Positions 8,798 through 50,665 of a stretch of 64,000 nt of DNA are shown piece after piece. The stretch is taken from assembly GCF_001243045.1 (NCBI RefSeq), contig NZ_LN849007.1, forward strand, positions 772,989 through 836,988. The letters run 5' to 3'. Positions within the stretch are counted from its first letter, which is position 1. Each line of letters begins with the position of its first letter. Origin of the DNA: Clostridium niameyense (GTDB lineage: Bacteria > Bacillota > Clostridia > Clostridiales > Clostridiaceae). Both the position numbers and the translations under genes were made by a program. The notes under the pieces were generated by a model that saw only the letters and a list, made by a program, of their open reading frames with translations, ran no database searches and was not told where the DNA came from.

Positions 8798-10621
8798 TTG
8801 ATAAGTGCAGCATATGCTACAGCAATAGTTCTTATTTCTTTTAGAATGTTTGCTTTTTTTAAAGCAGTGCCTATATTTTTCCCGAAAGGTACACCTAACA
8901 TACTTAAGGTTTTTATGTCTTTAGTTATGGCATATATATTAATACCAGGTATAGATATATCTAAAATCAATAATATTTCTAGTTATACAATGCTTGTATT
9001 AAGTTGTGTAAGTGAAATATTGACAGGATATATGTTGGGTTATATTACTAATGCTGCTTTTTTTGTAGCAAGATATGCAGGAAATGTAATGGATTTGCAG
9101 GTAGGATTTGCCATGATGAGTATGTTTGATCCTAATACAAATAGTAATGCTACTTTACTAGAAAGAGTTCTATATTGGTTTAGTGTTATCCTATTTTTTA
9201 TAATAGATGGTCATCATATGCTTATAAGAGCTCTAGTAGAAAGTTTTAATGCTATAAATTTAGGGAAATTCTTTTTAACACAGGGAGGCATAAAGGTAAC
9301 TATAGATGTTTTTATACAGTATTTTTACATAAGCTTAAAAATATCTATACCTATTATGCTTATAATTCTTATAACAGATTTAGTTTTAGGATTGGTAGCA
9401 AGAACGGTACCACAGCTTAATGTAATGATATTAGGCTTGCCTGTCAAAATCCTTATAGGACTTATAGCTTTTTGTTTTGCATTACCCTTATTTTTGAAAA
9501 TATTAGAGCAAGCTTTTTATAGTTTACCAGATGCCATAAAAAGCTTTTATAGAACAATACCTATTTTAATAGTTTTTGCGTCGGAAGATAAGACAGAAGA
9601 GGCAACGCCTAGAAAGAAAAGTGAGGCTAAAAAGAAGGGACAAATTGCAAAAAGTAAAGAAGTAGGACTTGCTCTTACTTTATTAGCATCGACTATTATT
9701 ATAGTAACTTTAGGAGAATTTACAGTAACTTCGCTAAAAGATACTATGGTAGGGTTTTTATCTCATTACTTAAATGTAGAATTAAATTATAATACTTTAA
9801 CTAATATTACTTTGATAACTTTGGGAAGACTAGCACAAATTATATTACCTATAGCAGTACCTATTATGATAGTAGGAGTTTTTGCAAATTTTCTACAAAG
9901 TGGTTTTATTTTTACTAAAGAACCTTTAAAACCAGATTTTAAAAAGTTAAATCCTATAAATGGTTTTAAAAGAATGTTTTCCTTAAGAAGCATTGTGGAA
10001 CTTTTAAAGGATATAGCAATAATTACCGTAGTAGGTTTCGTTGGTTATAAGTATGTTAAGGATAATTTTATTAGCATATTAAATTTGGGTACTTTAAAGC
10101 CTTGGGCTATGATACAAACTATGATAGATTTATCTGTGGGTATATTTTTTAGGATAACTTTGATCATGATATTTATATCTGTAGCAGATTATATGTATCA
10201 AAGGTATCAATATAACAAGGACCTAAAAATGACAAAACAAGAAGTAAAAGAAGAGTACAAACAAGATGAGGGGGATCCTCAAATTAAATCTAAAATAAAA
10301 CAAAAACAAAGAGAGATGGCTATGAGAAGGATGATGCAGGAAGTACCTAAAGCTACAGTGGTTGTTACAAACCCAACTCATATAGCTGTAGCTTTAAAAT
10401 ATGAAAAAGGAGATAATGCCCCTTTAGTTGTGGCAAAAGGTGCAGATAATGTAGCTATAAGAATAAAAGGTATAGCTAAGGATAATGAAATTCCTATAAT
10501 GGAAAATAAACCCTTAGCACGACTTATTTTTAATGAAGTGGAAATAAATGAAGAAATACCTATGGAAATGTATGAGGCTGTAGCAGAAATATTAGCTTTG
10601 GTTTATAAAATAAAAAAATAA
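8798..10621 (+). CDS. fliR-flhB: FliR-FlhB fusion, flagellar export gate and specificity switch
   Basis: One uninterrupted 607-residue reading frame encodes FliR (about 1-255) followed by FlhB (about 256-607). The FliR part has the expected six membrane helices. The FlhB part opens with the family signature EDKTEEATPRKKSEAKKKGQ, has four membrane helices and ends with the autocleavage motif Asn525-Pro-Thr-His528, equivalent to N269-PTH of Salmonella FlhB, so the substrate switch should work. The start is TTG 8798 after TAGGAGAGG. FliR-FlhB fusion is known in some clostridia, where it fixes the 1:1 stoichiometry of the two gate proteins. Confidence 0.95.
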   Translation: MISAAYATAIVLISFRMFAFFKAVPIFFPKGTPNILKVFMSLVMAYILIPGIDISKINNISSYTMLVLSCVSEILTGYMLGYITNAAFFVARYAGNVMDLQVGFAMMSMFDPNTNSNATLLERVLYWFSVILFFIIDGHHMLIRALVESFNAINLGKFFLTQGGIKVTIDVFIQYFYISLKISIPIMLIILITDLVLGLVARTVPQLNVMILGLPVKILIGLIAFCFALPLFLKILEQAFYSLPDAIKSFYRTIPILIVFASEDKTEEATPRKKSEAKKKGQIAKSKEVGLALTLLASTIIIVTLGEFTVTSLKDTMVGFLSHYLNVELNYNTLTNITLITLGRLAQIILPIAVPIMIVGVFANFLQSGFIFTKEPLKPDFKKLNPINGFKRMFSLRSIVELLKDIAIITVVGFVGYKYVKDNFISILNLGTLKPWAMIQTMIDLSVGIFFRITLIMIFISVADYMYQRYQYNKDLKMTKQEVKEEYKQDEGDPQIKSKIKQKQREMAMRRMMQEVPKATVVVTNPTHIAVALKYEKGDNAPLVVAKGADNVAIRIKGIAKDNEIPIMENKPLARLIFNEVEINEEIPMEMYEAVAEILALVYKIKK

Positions 10622-36702: not shown

Positions 36703-36749
36703 TATAAATGAATGATATAGTATTTTAATTAAAAAGGGGGAATTTGTCT

Positions 36750-37619
36750 ATGTATAAGGTTCTATATGATTGTGATAATACTATGGGAATGTTAAATAAA
36801 GATGTAGACGACGGTTTAACGCTTATGTATCTTTTAGGCAGTAAGGAAGTAGAACTTATGGGTGTTACTTCTACTCATGGTAATAGTTCAGTAGAAAAAA
36901 CTCATAGCAATACTTTAAAAATGATGAGCTATTTAGGTTTTGAAAATAGGCCTATTTTTAAAGGAGGAGACCTTAAAGTAGGCAGAGTTAGTGAGGCATC
37001 AAAGTTTTTAGCACTTACTACCAGCAGGTATCCTAAAGAAGTAACAGTTATAGCTACAGGTTCACTTACTAATTTATATGGAGCATATTTATGCGACGAA
37101 AATTTTTATGATAATATAGGTAAAATCATCATTATGGGAGGTATAACAAAACCATTAATTATAAATGGAGTTAAAATAAATGAACTTAATCTCTCTTGTG
37201 ATTTTGAAGCATCTTATAGTGTTTTGACTTCGAACGCAGATATAACTATATTTAATGGTCATACTTCTCTACAAGCTTTATTTACGGAAAAAGAAATTAA
37301 TAAATTAAAAAATAATAATGAAAAGATATACAGATATATTAATGAAAAAATTAAACCTTGGTATGAATTAATGGAAAAGGATATAGGGATAAAAGGATTT
37401 TGCAATTGGGATGCAACTACAGCCTTATATTTAACTCATAAAGAACTTTTTGAAGATGATTATATAAATATATGTCCTAACATAGAAAATTTAAAAAATG
37501 GTATAATAGATTTATGTGATGATAATAAAGGATATAAAGTGAATATGCCGACAAAAATAAAAGATTTAAATAGATTTAATGATATACTTATTAGTACTTG
37601 GGGAAATCTTTTTAGCTAA
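36750..37619 (+). CDS. Nucleoside hydrolase (IUNH family) with extended metal motif
   Basis: Cleaves ribonucleosides to ribose and base. The 289-residue protein matches the IUNH fold: TSTHGNSSVEKTHSNT, VIATGSLTNLYGA, and FCNWDATTALYL near the end. The N-terminal calcium motif is stretched: Asp7-Cys-Asp9 and Asp20-Asp21 are separated by ten residues instead of the usual three of DxDPGxDD, which suggests a separate subfamily. The frame is open from TTG 36744; SD AAGGGGG (36734-36740) favours ATG 36750. Confidence 0.85.
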   Translation: MYKVLYDCDNTMGMLNKDVDDGLTLMYLLGSKEVELMGVTSTHGNSSVEKTHSNTLKMMSYLGFENRPIFKGGDLKVGRVSEASKFLALTTSRYPKEVTVIATGSLTNLYGAYLCDENFYDNIGKIIIMGGITKPLIINGVKINELNLSCDFEASYSVLTSNADITIFNGHTSLQALFTEKEINKLKNNNEKIYRYINEKIKPWYELMEKDIGIKGFCNWDATTALYLTHKELFEDDYINICPNIENLKNGIIDLCDDNKGYKVNMPTKIKDLNRFNDILISTWGNLFS

Positions 37620-37670: not shown

Positions 37671-37970
37671 TTAAATAAGAATGCCTTTTGATCCATAGAT
37701 AGGACCTATAAAAGGTATTCTTAATTTTTGATATATAAGTATATCTTCTTTTAGTTTTAAGGATTTACTTATATATGCTTTTACACCATTATATTCAAGG
37801 AGTATAAAGTTTTTTTCATTAGGAACTTTATTTGAAATCTCAATACTAAGATTTTGAACTTCTTTGCTCCCGCCAACTCACCCACCACAGGTTGTTGTTA
37901 AAATGCTAACTATAAAATTTGAATTTCTTTTTTTACATTCTTTTAATGCTTTTTCTTCAATTTTAAAAAT
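37671..37970 (-). CDS. Candidate selenoprotein with Cys-Gly-Gly-Sec motif (in-frame TGA)
   Basis: The minus strand has one continuous frame if the TGA at 37880-37878 is read as selenocysteine: about 99 residues with SILTTTCGGUVGGSKEV. Without read-through it splits into two fragments, neither with a normal length. The TGA sits in a Cys-x-x-Sec redox motif, and a bSECIS-like hairpin (37854-37835) lies 23 bases downstream. Codons on both sides keep the genome's usage and end at a clean TAA before a terminator. The start is unusual: GGAGG at 37983-37979 best fits ATT 37970 (MFKIEEKALKE); GTG 37979 and ATG 37985 are alternatives. A later segment (EYNGVKAYISKSL, IPFIG) vaguely resembles HesB/IscA-like proteins; function unknown. 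Confidence 0.8.
37835..37854 (-). promoter_or_regulatory. Putative bacterial SECIS hairpin
   Basis: On the minus-strand RNA, AAAUCUU pairs with GAGAUUU (one U-G pair) around a 6-base loop AGUAUU, with a G at loop position 2. The loop begins 31 bases after the UGA. This fits the published loose bSECIS model (a short stem, 3-14-base loop with early G, about 16-37 bases from UGA). Confidence 0.5.
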
Positions 37971-37984
37971 TTGAAACACCTCCA

Positions 37985-38036
37985 TATACCCATATGGGGT
38001 ATAATTTATATTAATATATTTTATAGGTTATGTCAA
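37985..38036 (-). promoter_or_regulatory. Promoter and TATACCC-N5-GGGTATA operator of the selenoprotein candidate
   Basis: Minus-strand TTGACA (38036-38031), 17 bases, TAATAT (38013-38008) is a near-consensus sigma-A promoter. The perfect inverted repeat TATACCC (37985-37991) / GGGTATA (37997-38003) covers the predicted start site. Its shape (ATACCC...GGGTAT) resembles operators of CsoR/CstR-family repressors. Confidence 0.65.
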
Positions 38037-38138: not shown

Positions 38139-38645
38139 ATGAATAATTTAAAAAAATTAACCTATACAGGATTGTTAATTGCATTATCTATTACAATACC
38201 TTTAGTTTTTGGATTTTTAAAAATACAAATAGGACCTTTTAGTGCTACTTTAGCTTCTCATGTACCGCTATTTGTATCTATGTTTTTAAGCCCAGTATGT
38301 GCAGCTATGGTAGGATTAGGATCTGCTCTAGGATTTTTAATATCAACTCCACTAGTGGTAGCTTCAAGGGCTTTCATGCACACTTTTGTAGGTTTTATAG
38401 GTGGGTATTTAATAAAAAAAGGAGTTAGCTTTAAAAAAGTTATAATTGTAACTGCACCAGTACATGGACTTTTAGAAGCTATAGCTGTGATACCTTTTGG
38501 ATTTACAGTATATAAAATACTTATAGTAGTGGGATTAGGTTCTATACTTCATCATATAACTGATGGAGTTATTACCTTAGTATTAATAAAAGCCCTGTCT
38601 AAAAATTCAAATAAAAATTTTAATAAATTATTTTTTCCAAAATAA
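38139..38645 (+). CDS. ECF transporter S component, likely vitamin (niacin?) specific
   Basis: A 168-residue integral membrane protein with five or six helices, beginning KKLTYTGLLIALSITIPLVF, typical of substrate-binding S components of energy-coupling-factor transporters. ASHVPLFVSMFLSP and the HHITDGVITLVL ending resemble the NiaX-type niacin family, which would fit the palindromic operator upstream. S components work with a shared EcfAAT module encoded elsewhere. Substrate remains uncertain. ATG after AAGGGGATG. Confidence 0.75.
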   Translation: MNNLKKLTYTGLLIALSITIPLVFGFLKIQIGPFSATLASHVPLFVSMFLSPVCAAMVGLGSALGFLISTPLVVASRAFMHTFVGFIGGYLIKKGVSFKKVIIVTAPVHGLLEAIAVIPFGFTVYKILIVVGLGSILHHITDGVITLVLIKALSKNSNKNFNKLFFPK

Positions 38646-38790: not shown

Positions 38791-39963
38791 ATGGGAAGTG
38801 TTAAGTTAAAAAATAATGTATATTGGGTAGGAGTAAAAGATTCAGAGTTAGAAGTTTTTGATATAATAATGAGAACAAAAAAAGGTACTACGTATAATGC
38901 ATACCTTATAGATGATGAGAAGATAGCACTTATAGATTGTGTTAAAGATGGATTTTTTGAAGAATATATATCAAATATACAGGAAATAATTGGTGATAGA
39001 AAAGTTGACTATATAATAGTACAGCATACAGAACTTGATCATAGTGGTTCCCTGAAAAAATTATTAGAAATTTATCCAGAGGCTACAGTTATAGGTTCAA
39101 AAGCAGCTATTATATATAGCAGAGAAATAGTTAACAAAGACTTTAAAAATAAAACAGTAACTACAAGTTTAAGTCTTGGAAAGACTCAGCTTAAATTTAT
39201 ATCTGCTCCTAATCTACATTGGCCAGATACTATGTTCACTTATGTAGAAACAGAAAAAATATTATTTACTTGTGATTTTTTAGGATGTCACTATTGTCCC
39301 AAAGAATGTATTACAGATAGTTGTGGTGATGATTATTTAGAAGAAATGAAGTATTATTTTGATGTAATTATGGGACCTTTTAAAAAGTTTGTAATTATGG
39401 GATTAGACAAAATAAAGGATTTAGATATTGATATGATAGGTACTAGTCATGGACCTATTCATGTGAATGATATAGATAAGTATTTAAATTTATATAGAAA
39501 GTGGTCTAGTGTAGAAAGTGCAAAACAGAAGAATGTTCAGATATTTTACGTGTCTGCTTATGGAAATACAGAAAAAATGGCCAAATATTTAGAAGCAAAA
39601 ATAAACCAGCAAGGTATTAAGGCAGAAAGTCATGAGATTACTTCTATGAATATAGATAATATTTTAGATTTGGTAGAGAATTGTAGTGGATTAATTATGG
39701 GATCGCCAACCATAAATCAAGATGCAGTTAAACCAGTTTGGGATGTTATGTCACAGGTATGTGTTATTACAAATAGAGGAAAAGCAGGAGCAGCTTTTGG
39801 ATCTTATGGTTGGAGTGGGGAAGGTGTACCACTTATGACAGAAAGATTAAAGGGATTAAAGTTTAAAGTTCTTGAAAAGGGATTAAGGTTTAAATTTGTA
39901 CCTAATGAAGAGAATTTTAAAATTGCTGATAATTTTATAGATGAATTTATTAAAATTATTTAA
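38791..39963 (+). CDS. Flavodiiron protein (FprA-type O2/NO reductase)
   Basis: A 390-residue flavodiiron protein: metallo-beta-lactamase-like domain (about 1-245) with diiron ligands His79, Glu81, Asp83, His84 (HTELDH), His143, Asp162 and His220, and a flavodoxin domain (about 250-390, [16 protein letters not shown]). It reduces O2 to water or NO to N2O with electrons from rubredoxin, protecting this anaerobe. A Cys-rich stretch around Asp162 (Cys161, 166, 169, 173, 178) is present. ATG follows GTAGGAGGG; monocistronic by context. Confidence 0.94.
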
Positions 39964-42261: not shown

Positions 42262-42936
42262 ATGGTATCTATAATTATTCCAGTATTAAATGAAGAAAAA
42301 ACTATAGAAAATTTATTGAAAAATCTACAAAGATTAAAGGGAAATAAGGAAATAATAATAGTAGATGGGGGAAGCATAGATAATACCTTTTTTATTTGCC
42401 AAAAATATGGCAAACTTTTAAAAAGTAAAAAAGGAAGATCAAATCAGATGAATGTAGGAGCTAAAGTTGCTAAAGGAGATATTTTATGGTTTGTACATTC
42501 AGATTCCATAGTTAATAAAAATAGTATAGATATTATAGAGAAAACTATAAAATTAGGTTATATAGGAGGGGGATTTAATTTATACTTTTACGATTTAGGT
42601 AGCAAATTTATGGACTATATAAGAAAAACATCTAATTTAAGGGCTAAAAAATTAAAAATTTTTTATGGAGATCAAGGGATTTTTATAAAAAAGGAAGTTT
42701 TTCAAAGAATTGAAGGATATTCTAATTTAGAAATAATGGAGGATTTAGACTTATCAATAAGACTTAGAAAGATAGGAAATATGAAATTAGTATCGTGTAC
42801 TATAGGCACATCAGCTAGAAGATTTAAAAACTATGGTGAATTTAAAACTCATATTTTAATGCATAAGTTAAGAATTCTATATTTTTTAGGAGTTTCTACA
42901 AAAAAATTGAGTAGAATTTACAGGGAGGCACGATGA
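42262..42936 (+). CDS. Family 2 glycosyltransferase (TIGR04283-like)
   Basis: A 224-residue GT-A glycosyltransferase. SIIIPVLNEEKTIENLLKNL, IIIVDGGSIDNT, ILWFVHSDSIV (the DxD-type HSD) and GDQGIFIKKEVFQRIEGY are typical of the TIGR04283 group, which often travels with a TIGR04282 protein, as here. Acceptor unknown. It starts at ATG 42262 and overlaps the next gene by 4 bases, opening a six-gene operon to 47211. Confidence 0.88.
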   Translation: MVSIIIPVLNEEKTIENLLKNLQRLKGNKEIIIVDGGSIDNTFFICQKYGKLLKSKKGRSNQMNVGAKVAKGDILWFVHSDSIVNKNSIDIIEKTIKLGYIGGGFNLYFYDLGSKFMDYIRKTSNLRAKKLKIFYGDQGIFIKKEVFQRIEGYSNLEIMEDLDLSIRLRKIGNMKLVSCTIGTSARRFKNYGEFKTHILMHKLRILYFLGVSTKKLSRIYREAR

Positions 42937-43631
42937 TGAATGCGCTAATAATTATGACTAGAATTCCTGTGGCTGGAAAAACAAAAACAAGACTTATGAA
43001 GATATTAACGGGAGAACAATGTGCATCTATACATAAAAGTTTTTTAATGGATATATTAAATACTACAAATTTTATGAAAAAAAATATGGATATATATTTA
43101 ACCTATAGTGATGAAGGTCCTTTTTCTATTATAGAATCACTAATTCCAGAGTATATTAAGGCGTTTCCTCAAAGTGGTAAAATCCTTGGAGAAAAAATGA
43201 GAAATGCTATAGAAAATCTATTAGATAATGGATATGATAAGGTTGTTCTTATAGGTTCTGATATACCTGAAGTTCAGCCTAATAATATAGAAAAGGCATT
43301 TGAAATATTGGATGAAAAAGATGTATGTTTTGGTCCTACTATGGATGGAGGATATTATTTGGTAGGTATGAAAAAAATGCATCCAATAGTTTTTGAAAGT
43401 GATATAAAGTGGGGAAGTAAATATGTCTTTGATAATACCATGGGAATTTTAAATAAAGCTAATTTACAAGTAGGGTTTGTAGATAAATACGAAGATATAG
43501 ACACAGAAGAAGATTTAAAAAAATTAATTAATAGAATTAATAATAAAAATTATACTGTAGAACCCGAAAGAACTAAAGATTTTTTAAATAATTGGTGGAG
43601 GAAGGTCTATGTTGAAAGATACACTAAGTAA
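42933..43631 (+). CDS. TIGR04282 / DUF2064 nucleotidyltransferase-fold glycosyltransferase
   Basis: A 232-residue protein with ALIIMTRIPVAGKTKTRLM near the start, VVLIGSDIPEVQPNNIEKAF and FGPTMDGGYYLVGMKK, the hallmarks of the DUF2064/TIGR04282 family. Some members are found beside arsenosugar genes, but no arsenic gene is seen here, so that name should not be taken as function. Coupled to the upstream GT2 gene and overlapping the kinase-like gene by 23 bases. Confidence 0.86.
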   Translation: MMNALIIMTRIPVAGKTKTRLMKILTGEQCASIHKSFLMDILNTTNFMKKNMDIYLTYSDEGPFSIIESLIPEYIKAFPQSGKILGEKMRNAIENLLDNGYDKVVLIGSDIPEVQPNNIEKAFEILDEKDVCFGPTMDGGYYLVGMKKMHPIVFESDIKWGSKYVFDNTMGILNKANLQVGFVDKYEDIDTEEDLKKLINRINNKNYTVEPERTKDFLNNWWRKVYVERYTK

Positions 43632-44607
43632 ACAAATAAAGAATTATATAAGTGAAACTGATGTACGTAAACATATTTCTTTAAATAAGGATTTTAAGAT
43701 TAGTTTTTTAGCACAAGGAGAATATAATATAAATTTTATAGTAGAAGATTTTGAAAATAAGTATGTATTTAGGGTTAATACTAAAAGTCAGTTGGGACTT
43801 CAAAAACAAATAGAATATGAATACAATGCTTTAAGAAGATTAGAAAAAAGTGGAGTAACATCTAAGGTTTATTATGTGGATGGTAGCAAAAAGAATTTAG
43901 AATATGGTGTTCTTATAATGCAATACCTAAAGGGAAATCCATTAAATTATAGTAAGGATTTATATAAAGCTGCAAATATATTTGGGAAAATACATTCTAT
44001 AGAAACTACGAAAGAAGATTTAAAAAATTTTATAGTAGAAGATAAATTATTTTCTTCAAGAATAGAAGAAGCATCTAAGTTACTAAGTAATTTCTGGGAA
44101 AATCCATTAATAGATAAACCAACAAAAGATTTTTTCTATAAGTTTATGAATTGGTGTAAAAAAAATTCCTATAAGGAGAAATATTTCATTGAAAATCCTT
44201 TAATGGTTATAAACAACACAGAGGTTAATTCTCATAATTTTATAATTGGAGAAAAAGATTACTATTTAATAGATTGGGAAAAGCCTGTGATAAGTGATCC
44301 TTGTCAGGATCTTACTCAATTTTTAGTACCTACTACTACATTATGGAAGACGGATTACGTATTAAATCAGGAAGAAATAAACAAGTTTTTTCATACTTAT
44401 GAGAAGGTATTTCCAGGGAAAAATGTACGAGAAAGAGTAGATATGTATACACCTTATATATATTTAAGGGCATTAGGATGGTGTGCATATGCTTATTTAG
44501 AATATCAAAATCCTAATAAAGAAATTAAAAATGAAGATACTTATAAAAAAATAAAGCAGTATTTAGATATAGATTTTATGAAGAAATTATTAAATAGGTG
44601 GTTTTAA
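43609..44607 (+). CDS. Aminoglycoside-phosphotransferase-fold kinase
   Basis: A 332-residue protein of the APH/choline-kinase fold: FRVNTKSQLGLQKQIEYEYN (ATP-binding Lys region), VLIMQYLKGNPL (hinge) and YYLIDWEKPVISDPCQDL (metal-binding Asp in IDWE). The usual catalytic HxDxxxxN loop appears as TEVNSHNF, without the Asp, so the enzyme may be atypical or inactive. In this operon it could phosphorylate a sugar or alcohol headgroup; substrate unknown. Confidence 0.75.
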   Translation: MLKDTLSKQIKNYISETDVRKHISLNKDFKISFLAQGEYNINFIVEDFENKYVFRVNTKSQLGLQKQIEYEYNALRRLEKSGVTSKVYYVDGSKKNLEYGVLIMQYLKGNPLNYSKDLYKAANIFGKIHSIETTKEDLKNFIVEDKLFSSRIEEASKLLSNFWENPLIDKPTKDFFYKFMNWCKKNSYKEKYFIENPLMVINNTEVNSHNFIIGEKDYYLIDWEKPVISDPCQDLTQFLVPTTTLWKTDYVLNQEEINKFFHTYEKVFPGKNVRERVDMYTPYIYLRALGWCAYAYLEYQNPNKEIKNEDTYKKIKQYLDIDFMKKLLNRWF

Positions 44608-45746
44608 TGAAGAATAAAAGTTTTTTAATAAATAATAAAGTTACTAAAGAAAAGATGGAATATATAATAAACAATTGTATAGAATGTAATTTATGTGTTA
44701 AGAATTGTGAAATGCTAAAATATTTTAAGGGGAATCCAAAAAGAATTTTTACAAGTATATTGGAAGAAGGAAAAGTAAACCCTATACTTCCTTATTCATG
44801 TACTTTATGCAAAAAATGTACAGAAGTTTGTCCTAAAAATTTAAAAACAGAAGAAGTTTTTATGGATATGAGGTGTGATATAGCAAGGGAAAATAATGGA
44901 CAATCTCCTTTAAAAGGACATAATGCTATTCATATACATCAAAAATGGGGATTTTCTAAGTTGTTTACTAAATATGTTAAAAATCAAGACATTACTAAGG
45001 TTAAAAGGATATTTTTCCCAGGATGTAATGTTGCAGCCTATAGTCCAGAACTAGTTATAAAAACTTATGAGCATTTAAAAAATAATTTAGATGGTACAGC
45101 AATTCTTTTAGAGTGTTGTGGTAAGCCTACAGAATCTTTAGGGGAGAAAGAAAAGTTTAACAAATTATTTTCTAAGGTGGAAAATGATATAAAAGGTACT
45201 GGAGCTATTGAGGTAATAACAGCCTGCCAAAATTGTTATACTACCATGAAAAAATATAGCAGTAATTTAAAAGTTAGGTCTTTATGGGAGGTTTTAAGGG
45301 AAATAGGATTACCTAAAGAAGCTATAGGTATAGGAAATGATAGTGATGTAGTATTTTCTATACATGATTCTTGTCCAACACGATATGAAAAAGAAATACA
45401 AGAAAGCGTTAGATGGATAGTAGATGAGCTTGGCTATAAGATTGAAGAAAAGGATGAAATAATGGATAAAACCAATTGTTGCGGTACTGGTGGAATGATA
45501 CATGTTGTAAATTCAGAGATTTCTAATAAATTTATAAGGAAAGCTACAAGTGCTATTAAAGGAGATTATATTATAACTTATTGTGCAGGATGTAGAGAGT
45601 CTATGATAAAAGGTGGAGTAAAATCACTACATATATTGGAACTTATATTTGGTGAAAAAATTATGGATAAGAATAAAGCTACTAATATAAATTCTTCTTT
45701 AAAATCTTGGGGAAATAGGTTTAAGCTTAAAGGTTTAATAAAATAG
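44607..45746 (+). CDS. Iron-sulfur (Fe-S)-binding reductase subunit, HdrD/GlpC-like
   Basis: A 379-residue soluble protein with two ferredoxin-like clusters near the N-terminus (CIECNLCVKNC and CTLCKKCTEVCPK) and two CCG-type domains (LECCGKP near 160 and TNCCGTGG near 290, with CAGCRES after). This is the HdrD/GlpC/LutA plan, handling electrons for an unknown partner. The frame is open from GTG 44598, but ATG 44607, overlapping the previous stop, follows the SD AGGTGG. Confidence 0.85.
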   Translation: MKNKSFLINNKVTKEKMEYIINNCIECNLCVKNCEMLKYFKGNPKRIFTSILEEGKVNPILPYSCTLCKKCTEVCPKNLKTEEVFMDMRCDIARENNGQSPLKGHNAIHIHQKWGFSKLFTKYVKNQDITKVKRIFFPGCNVAAYSPELVIKTYEHLKNNLDGTAILLECCGKPTESLGEKEKFNKLFSKVENDIKGTGAIEVITACQNCYTTMKKYSSNLKVRSLWEVLREIGLPKEAIGIGNDSDVVFSIHDSCPTRYEKEIQESVRWIVDELGYKIEEKDEIMDKTNCCGTGGMIHVVNSEISNKFIRKATSAIKGDYIITYCAGCRESMIKGGVKSLHILELIFGEKIMDKNKATNINSSLKSWGNRFKLKGLIK

Positions 45747-45770
45747 TTTAAGTTAAGTGGAGGAAAATCA

Positions 45771-46463
45771 TTGAATAAATCTAAAAAGAAATTATTAAAA
45801 AATATGTTATTGATATTTGGATTATTGTGTTTAATTATAATTTTTAAAAAATCTTCAATATTTAAAAATTATAGTGCAACTTATATCAAAGATTACATCA
45901 ATAGTTATGGTGCTATAGCGCCTATTGTTTATATAATAATATTTACTTTGGTAGCCCTTGTTATAATACCTAATTCTGTGGTAGCTATAGCAGGAGGAAT
46001 GGCATTTGGTATTGTAAAAGGAACATTTTATACTGTTTTAGGAGCTTTAGGAGCTGCATCTTTGGCTTTTTTTGTAGCTAGATTTTTAGGAAGGTCTGTA
46101 GTAGAAAAATTAATGAAAGGTAAAGGAAAGTTATTTGAAGATGGTATAGAAAAAAACGGATTCTTAGTTATATTAATTCTAAGACTTATACCGTTAATTC
46201 CTTTTGACATTATAAGCTATGGAGCAGGACTTTCTAAAATTAAGTTCAAAGATCTTGTATTAGGTACACTTATAGGTGTAATTCCAGGTGTGTTGGTTTT
46301 TGTGAATATAGGTGATAAATCTTTAAATATAAAATCTAAAGGATTTATTATTTCTATATTACTTTTAATTGTTTTAATAATAGTTTCATGCATATTGAAG
46401 AAAAATATATCTTTTGATAAACTTCAAAAGGATATGATAAGGAATGGGGATAATAATGGATAA
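45771..46463 (+). CDS. TVP38/TMEM64 (DedA-superfamily) membrane protein
   Basis: A 230-residue integral membrane protein with the VTT-domain features FGIVKGTFYTVLGALGAASL, RFLGRS and LRLIPLIPFDIISYGAGLS. The family is linked to lipid scrambling or flippase functions. TTG 45771 starts after GTGGAGGAAAATCA. It is followed, with overlap, by a second paralogue. Confidence 0.88.
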   Translation: MNKSKKKLLKNMLLIFGLLCLIIIFKKSSIFKNYSATYIKDYINSYGAIAPIVYIIIFTLVALVIIPNSVVAIAGGMAFGIVKGTFYTVLGALGAASLAFFVARFLGRSVVEKLMKGKGKLFEDGIEKNGFLVILILRLIPLIPFDIISYGAGLSKIKFKDLVLGTLIGVIPGVLVFVNIGDKSLNIKSKGFIISILLLIVLIIVSCILKKNISFDKLQKDMIRNGDNNG

Positions 46464-49261: not shown

Positions 49262-50665
49262 ATGGGAAAAGATTTAGTAAAAAAATATGAATCAGCTTGG
49301 GAGAAATATTCTAAAGATGATTTAAAGGCGGTTTTTGATTTATCAGAAAGATATAAGAAATTTATTTCTAAATGTAAAACGGAAAGACAATGTGTAAATG
49401 AATTTATAAAGCTAGCAGAAGAAAATGGTTATAGAGATTTAGAAGAAATTATAAAAAACAATGAAAAATTAAAACCAGGTGAAAAAGTTTATGCAAACAA
49501 TATGGGTAAAACTTTAGCTTTATTTATTATAGGAAAAGAATCAATGGATAAAGGCTTAAAAATCTTAGGAGCTCATATAGATTCACCAAGATTAGATTTA
49601 AAACAAAACCCATTATATGAAGATACAGATCTAGCTTTATTAGATACTCATTATTATGGAGGAATAAAAAAATATCAATGGGTTACTATTCCCTTAGCTA
49701 TTCATGGGGTTATAGTTAAAAAGAATGGAATTAAAATTAATATATCCATAGGAGATGAAAAGGATGATCCTGTATTTGGTATATCTGATTTATTAATTCA
49801 TCTAGCAGGAAATCAAATGGATAAAAAACTATCTAAGGGTATAGAAGGAGAAGACTTAAATATACTAGTAGGCAGTATTCCTATAGAGGATAAAGATGCT
49901 AAAGATAGAGTTAAGAGAAATATATTAAAGATTTTAAATGAAAAATATAATATAAAAGAAGAAGATTTTGTATCTGCTGAACTAGAAGTAGTTCCAGCAG
50001 GAGATGCAAGGGATTATGGTTTTGATAGGAGTATGGTTATGGCTTATGGACAAGATGATAGGGTTTGTTCATATACATCTTTTGAAGCTATGATGCAATT
50101 AAAAGAGTGCGATAAAACTTGTGTTACACTTCTTGTGGATAAAGAAGAAATAGGTAGTGTAGGAGCTACTGGAATGCAGTCAAAATTCTTTGAAAATACA
50201 GTAGCTGAAATTATAAATTTATCAGAGGATAGTTATAATGACTTAAAATTAAGAAGATGTCTTACAAATTCAAAAATGTTATCATCTGATGTATCGGCAG
50301 CTTTTGATCCTAATTACCCATCTGTTATGGAAAAGAAAAATTCAGCATATTTTGGGCATGGAATTGTATTTAATAAATACACAGGTTCAAGAGGAAAAGG
50401 TGGATCCAATGATGCTAGTGCAGAGTACATGGCAGAAATAAGAGCTATTATGGATAAACATAATGTAACTTGGCAAACAGCAGAGCTTGGTAAAGTAGAC
50501 CAAGGTGGTGGAGGTACTATAGCATATATACTTGCTGAATATGGTATGAATGTTATAGATTGTGGAGTGGCTCTTCTAAATATGCATGCACCATGGGAAA
50601 TAGCTAGTAAAGCAGATATTTATGAAACTATGAAAGGTTACTATGCTTTTTTACAAGAAGCTTAA
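49262..50665 (+). CDS. M18 family metalloaminopeptidase
   Basis: Cytosolic zinc aminopeptidase of 467 residues in the M18 family. Seen are GAHIDSPRLDL (His/Asp metal ligands), DKEEIGSVGATGMQS (Glu pair), and the C-terminal GKVDQGGGGTIAYILA with NMHAPWE (His ligand). The frame opens at GTG 49244, but that lies in a hairpin loop; ATG 49262 gives the family-like start GKDLVKKYESAW. The SD is separated by the stem-loop described above. Confidence 0.92.
   Translation: MGKDLVKKYESAWEKYSKDDLKAVFDLSERYKKFISKCKTERQCVNEFIKLAEENGYRDLEEIIKNNEKLKPGEKVYANNMGKTLALFIIGKESMDKGLKILGAHIDSPRLDLKQNPLYEDTDLALLDTHYYGGIKKYQWVTIPLAIHGVIVKKNGIKINISIGDEKDDPVFGISDLLIHLAGNQMDKKLSKGIEGEDLNILVGSIPIEDKDAKDRVKRNILKILNEKYNIKEEDFVSAELEVVPAGDARDYGFDRSMVMAYGQDDRVCSYTSFEAMMQLKECDKTCVTLLVDKEEIGSVGATGMQSKFFENTVAEIINLSEDSYNDLKLRRCLTNSKMLSSDVSAAFDPNYPSVMEKKNSAYFGHGIVFNKYTGSRGKGGSNDASAEYMAEIRAIMDKHNVTWQTAELGKVDQGGGGTIAYILAEYGMNVIDCGVALLNMHAPWEIASKADIYETMKGYYAFLQEA

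Follow-up and report, generated by a model that had tools for sequence, protein, structure and literature searches.

A minus-strand frame with a single in-frame TGA

The window analysed here is a stretch of 64,000 nucleotides from Clostridium niameyense. Between a converging gene (36744-37619, plus strand) and a divergent gene (38139-38645, plus strand), its minus strand holds a single frame of 104 residues (37985-37671) that opens with ATG, ends at TAA (37673-37671) and is broken only by a TGA at residue 36 (37880-37878). Apart from this codon, we found zero disruptions. With the TGA read as selenocysteine (Sec, U), its context is TTTCGGUVGGS and the motif C-G-G-U. Translation thus confirms the initial annotation, which had described a continuous minus-strand frame with one TGA at the second redox position of a CGGU motif. 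The reading of the codon as Sec draws on this frame and on the tRNA-Sec and hairpin comparisons given below.

The Shine-Dalgarno sequence, stop codon and terminator that had been claimed for this gene were all recovered, the promoter in part. A GGAGG lies at 37983-37979, and GGAGGTG precedes many of the relatives as well. The start of the gene is uncertain because the ATG at 37985 overlaps this Shine-Dalgarno sequence and because the start Met of the relatives aligns with an ATT codon (37970-37968), which stands 8 nt behind the GGAGG. This rare start codon may be the real one, in which case the product would have 99 amino acids and a mass of 11.1 kDa. Downstream, the stretch at 37665-37613 (minus strand) holds the terminator hairpin and its U tail; the hairpin folds at −18 kcal/mol with a z score of −6.58, and 0 of 200 shuffles were as good; it could serve the converging gene too. 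Our terminator scan did not report this hairpin, probably owing to an internal mismatch. Upstream, the promoter-like sequence TTGACA-17 nt-TAATAT (38036-38008, minus strand) exists as claimed, with 10 of 12 matches, but shuffled sequence holds such sites equally often (5 in the window versus 6.3 expected), and the promoter scan by itself is no evidence. Between the −10 element and the Shine-Dalgarno sequence lies an exact palindrome, ATACCCCATATGGGTAT (38002-37986, minus strand), a putative repressor operator.

Coding bias on both sides of the TGA, also claimed beforehand, is clear after the codon and less so before it. GC contents by codon position are 0.41/0.25/0.13 after the TGA and 0.23/0.37/0.10 before it, with 0.49/0.35/0.17 for four neighbouring genes. 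Among close pairs of TGA-containing homologues, dN was below dS on both sides in six of six. For comparisons that include the window gene, dN was below dS after the TGA in four of four; before the TGA, the two were about equal in three, and dS was not computable in the fourth. The closest relative (genome G093) shares 47% identity spanning both sides of the TGA and also has a CGGU motif.

To the left of the gene lie a V-type ATPase operon and a peptide deformylase gene, and to the right an FprA-type flavoprotein gene (38791-39963, plus strand), all named by eye. The divergent gene at 38139-38645 had been labelled an ECF transporter by eye; we rejected this label, as a Pfam match was absent at 0.001. 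In several genomes, including some with a Cys form, the family gene adjoins the deformylase gene on the opposite strand, and the opposite flank is FprA or a homologue of the 38139 gene wherever the fetched stretch reaches that far.

Relatives, tRNA-Sec and a hairpin behind the TGA

A direct scan of genomes with the window protein returned zero relatives, and plasmids likewise gave zero. Relatives were instead reached through the neighbouring FprA gene, which led to 13 genomes, among which a search found homologues containing a single TGA or none, and then by whole-genome searches. The sample comprised 206 related genomes of one family, 53 of which had a match at E 0.01. Genes were read from 45 of these 53; six genomes with weak matches (G025, G037, G052, G071, G111 and G147) were not extracted, and those from G009 and G145 were read but failed the profile. 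We read 65 distinct genes and left one contig-edge fragment (L087) out of every count. The remaining 64 comprise 32 TGA forms (31 relatives and the window gene) and 32 Cys forms. The motif decided the class of L071, a Cys form that carries a further TGA, its second, close to the end of the gene.

The initial annotation had named homologues with Cys at the TGA position, or a TGA conserved in several species, as what would confirm a selenoprotein, and we find both. The window's Sec column holds C or U in 63 of 64 rows, although the spacing of the motif varies within the family (CGGU, CGU, CU and UC). The tree implies eight changes between Sec and Cys, at least five of them forced by its starred branches. 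It places the window gene, without starred support, beside those of G178 and G179 and the Cys form of G148, a genome in which no tRNA-Sec scored over the cut-off. By V-ATPase DNA, the nearest genome available for comparison is G005 (80% identity), where a convincing homologue is absent (best E 0.2) and, again, no tRNA-Sec scored over the cut-off. Two tandem pairs, each with a TGA copy followed by a Cys copy, were also seen (L036, 1101-1397 and 1501-1797; L035, 1498-1785 and 1859-2155).

The TGA form travels with tRNA-Sec. Wherever a TGA form was read, the genome carried a tRNA-Sec above the Rfam cut-off (28 of 28), as against 4 of 17 genomes with Cys forms only (Fisher P = 3 × 10−8), and 55 of 161 from which no family gene was read.

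Behind the window's TGA lies a SECIS-type hairpin (37854-37835, minus strand); its sequence is AAAUCUUA-GUAU-UGAGAUUU, with a stem of 8 bp and a loop 31 nt after the TGA. The bSECIS constraints given in PMC13188914 are a loop of 3 to 9 nt, a stem of 4 to 16 bp, a G in the first two loop positions, a spacing of 16 to 37 nt and a minimum free energy of at most −7.5. The window hairpin (GUAU, 8 bp, 31 nt and −7.8 kcal/mol over 54 nt from the TGA) agrees with all of those listed there. In most TGA genes, the hairpin begins about 18 to 24 nt behind the TGA. At −4 kcal/mol or better, 25 of 32 TGA genes form it at the corresponding position, against 2 of 32 Cys genes; the seven TGA forms that lack it there include the syntenic gene of Hathewaya massiliensis. 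Two Cys-form genes carry SECIS-like hairpins that appear to be relics of Sec-to-Cys change (L031, 1615-1638; L032, 1657-1680).

Several comparisons attach this structure to the TGA. Mean folding z scores were −1.89 for the 32 TGA forms versus −0.30 for the 32 Cys forms, with the window hairpin itself at only −1.23 in this 54-nt test. Helix cells were paired in 81.3% of cases in TGA genes, above 500 of 500 shuffles, and in 59.1% in Cys genes, no better than shuffles. Among TGA genes, doubly changed cells exceeded shuffles (4 of 500 reached the count), as did the covariation score; pairs changed on both sides were not above shuffles (157 of 500 reached the count). The window hairpin was equalled by 3 of 1000 synonymous shuffles. 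A hairpin model built without the window, from 19 of the 24 hairpin-bearing relatives after near-copies were left out, ranked the window hairpin first in 64 kb (E 0.011, a rough value), followed by a match at 49558 (E 0.099). Because the 19 were picked among hairpin-bearing TGA genes, this search tests the window and not the family. An Rfam search of the window gave zero matches.

The reading of 37985-37671 as a selenoprotein gene is therefore strongly supported by these sequence comparisons, and the gene is very probably genuine, encoding a divergent selenoprotein whose kind is known but not yet characterised, in which SelB and tRNA-Sec would decode the TGA as Sec. That it is instead a pseudogene, a former Cys-coding gene with a nonsense TGA, is highly improbable (the initial annotation had called a random nonsense mutation possible but less likely): the change from TGC or TGT needs only one step and the nearest genome has no convincing homologue, but 31 relatives share a single TGA, the same motif and conserved protein beyond it, every one of the 28 genomes concerned has a tRNA-Sec, the hairpin accompanies the TGA but has disappeared from most Cys forms, and the frame is otherwise undisrupted.

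Family and predicted fold

By sequence, the window protein is related, though divergently, to NF041239, the 'CC/Se motif family'. PMC13188914 enters this family (Moor_selen_rel) among the CxxU selenoproteins and gives Moorella thermoacetica as the species in which the hypothetical protein was predicted; the window protein resembles that entry in its small size and in its CGGU motif, which has the CxxU form. It differs in scoring only 19.2 bits (E 0.00098) against a cut-off of 40, and in the variable motif spacing among its relatives. In alignment A1, 35 of 38 members match NF041239 at E 0.1, and two relatives pass its cut-off (L086, 61.2 bits; L083, 46.1 bits). Homology, by search and alignment, links the window protein to both, although the direct search tie to L086 is weak (E 0.0066) and the two are long branches in the tree. 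When ten relatives were scanned singly, eight stayed under the cut-off, including one that did not match at all. Many short selenoproteins of this clade thus lie below the NCBI threshold, and because of such scores, gene callers may well miss their genes, treating the DNA as intergenic or the frames as truncated.

Searches by sequence gave little indication of a fold. Pfam returned nothing usable for the window protein, and no match to PF01521; a PDB sequence search found only TM1634 (E 0.55). The AlphaFold2 model has a pLDDT of 88.9 and a pTM of 0.77, and its nine best Foldseek matches in the PDB are to SufA, IscA, AQ_1857, HI1723 and one ODPA-YNER model chain, with TM scores of 0.43 to 0.58 by query length and E values of 0.0032 to 0.063; none was under E 0.001, and the tenth match had a probability of 0.06. 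In a profile comparison, seven HesB-like selenoproteins from these genomes were matched with 92.3% probability and with Sec aligned on Sec, against 0.8% for a thioredoxin control profile. Most likely, then, the protein folds like an A-type carrier (IscA/HesB-like), as the model and the profiles predict, which lends substance to the faint HesB/IscA-like look noted initially. This predicted assignment is new for the clade.

The likeness to known A-type proteins has limits. The A-type carriers of the IscA type have three conserved Cys, including a C-terminal CxC. The window protein resembles the IscA/SufA/ErpA carriers (PF01521) in its predicted fold, but it has no Pfam match to them and lacks the C-terminal Cys pair, terminating in GSKGILI with no C-terminal Cys at all. 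With the HesB-like selenoproteins of TIGR01911, it shares the alignment of Sec to Sec and a palindrome that also precedes four such genes in related genomes. It differs from them in its UVGGS sequence and, again, in its C terminus. The TIGR01911 model did not match the window protein at E 1, and the motif is not the UxGP listed for that family in PMC13188914.

A shared palindrome, the genes beside it and a candidate regulator

Within the window, the palindrome at 38002-37986 is the only match in 64 kb allowing up to two mismatches (shuffles lead one to expect 1.37 at two mismatches). The window gene and 11 relatives, each of the latter a TGA form too, carry the core TACCC-N5-GGGTA directly ahead of their start; it is missing in exact form before 20 of the 32 TGA forms. 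Degenerate copies were seen by eye before L015, L031, L032, L053 and L054.

The palindrome extends well beyond this family. The exact sequence ATACCC-N5-GGGTAT occurs at 39 sites in 17 of 18 genomes, with one to four per genome, as against two sites for the reversed control. Thirteen of these sites lie at thioredoxin genes, 10 at CC/Se-type family genes, four at HesB-like TGA genes and five at genes of Fe-S ferredoxin type (four polyferredoxin-type genes and one ferredoxin). One is near a glutaredoxin gene, 58 nt away, and one at a thioredoxin-like TGA gene (SSDSUGAC). The five elsewhere comprise one at a TSCPD protein gene and four with a doubtful target or none: L115 (a DUF302 gene at 242 nt), L118 (inside a gene), L123 (a methyltransferase gene at 71 nt) and L132. 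Pfam backs one or two examples of each type of target name. Our new observation is that the ATACCC-N5-GGGTAT palindrome ahead of the window gene is found, in relatives, ahead of thioredoxin, HesB-like selenoprotein and Fe-S genes as well. In the open-access literature searched, we found no report of a palindrome-linked thioredoxin and selenoprotein regulon; a single paper there names NF041239.

Four of the sites had been taken for carbamate-kinase operators, a label that we rejected when HesB-like selenoprotein genes were found to sit there; these had been hidden because the ORF finder stops at TGA. The four genes (L116 at 3058, L128 at 1667, L131 at 3061 and L134 at 3036) begin 14 to 15 nt behind the palindrome; their products have FGUGGP or FGUAGP motifs and score under the TIGR01911 cut-off. 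In Hathewaya massiliensis, the TGA of the thioredoxin-like gene behind the palindrome (L137, 3046-2600, minus strand) occupies the first redox position (SSDSUGACGWMEP).

For the function of the protein, we prefer a thiol/selenol redox role over Fe-S cluster delivery, given that the protein lacks the Cys pair found at the C terminus of IscA. The Cys-Gly-Gly-Sec loop would form a reversible selenylsulfide, and the Cys-Sec pair may reduce a disulfide, persulfide or polysulfide; the oxidised protein could then be recycled by thioredoxin, whose gene has the same palindrome in relatives. The likeliest rival, though we think it rather unlikely, is that the selenoprotein is an Fe-S or metal carrier with a true A-type function and not a thiol redox protein. 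The predicted fold and the homology to HesB-like proteins would suit a carrier, as would the five palindrome sites before Fe-S ferredoxin-type genes. The missing CxC at a C terminus that reads GSKGILI speaks against this, as does the presence of the palindrome at thioredoxin and glutaredoxin genes; across the family, moreover, the second Cys or Sec sits at varying distances, which would suit redox chemistry better than a fixed cluster site.

We looked for a regulator among proteins of the CsoR family (PF02583), which gave 35 matches in 13 genomes; 30 loci were read and five were not fetched. Each genome had at least two matches, and by eye these include copper-CsoR-like proteins and, in some genomes, FrmR-like ones. 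Only 2 of the 30 loci have the palindrome just upstream, as TACCC-N5-GGGTA in G148 and TACCT-N5-AGGTA in G166. The 15-mer of G166 recurs before CC/Se genes, identical in G165 and with one change in G166 itself. In both regulators, Cys occupies the two ligand places and His neither, which we take to be the CstR-like pattern. The palindrome is missing before about 8 of the 10 CstR-like genes read. These sequence features suggest that a CstR-like protein is the repressor at the palindrome. A CsoR-family repressor, most likely of CstR-like type, would bind ATACCC-N5-GGGTAT and silence the gene, with thiol or reactive-sulfur stress lifting the repression. The regulon of CstR, the persulfide sensor of Staphylococcus, is similar in its presumed two-Cys repressor type and its upstream palindrome. 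The targets differ, being thioredoxin and selenoprotein genes here and the cst operon there, which PMC5480029 describes as likely the only direct target of CstR.

Also unlikely is a reading in which the link to stress would be wrong because a classical copper or formaldehyde sensor, or a regulator that does not belong to the CsoR family, uses the palindrome as its operator. Copper-CsoR-like and some FrmR-like paralogues are indeed present, and CsoR-RcnR proteins generally recognise pseudo-palindromic sites that contain G or C runs, according to PMC10318464. However, both PF02583 loci that bear the palindrome are CstR-like, and a copper gene was not recognised as the first gene behind any of the 29 other sites.

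As a whole, we consider it probable that the window encodes a selenoprotein of about 11 kDa with an IscA/HesB fold and a thiol/selenol redox role, repressed by a CstR-like protein through the palindrome. More tentatively, and with somewhat less than even confidence, one CstR-like repressor might govern a selenium-thiol regulon across Clostridiaceae, comprising thioredoxin/thioredoxin reductase and three selenoprotein families (CC/Se-type A-fold, HesB-like and UxxC thioredoxin-like). If true, the regulon would make up a Sec-dependent pathway that counters reactive sulfur or disulfide stress, and it would give these A-type selenoproteins a testable function. The IscA/HesB link and the common palindrome would together turn proteins without known function into a testable redox regulon.

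Elsewhere in the window, one plus-strand frame of 607 amino acids (8798-10621) resembles a FliR-FlhB fusion by eye. Another plus-strand region (42262-46463) holds, also by eye, two glycosyltransferase-like genes, a kinase-like gene, an Fe-S protein gene and a membrane gene, and this order is kept in L001 and, without the membrane gene, in L002.
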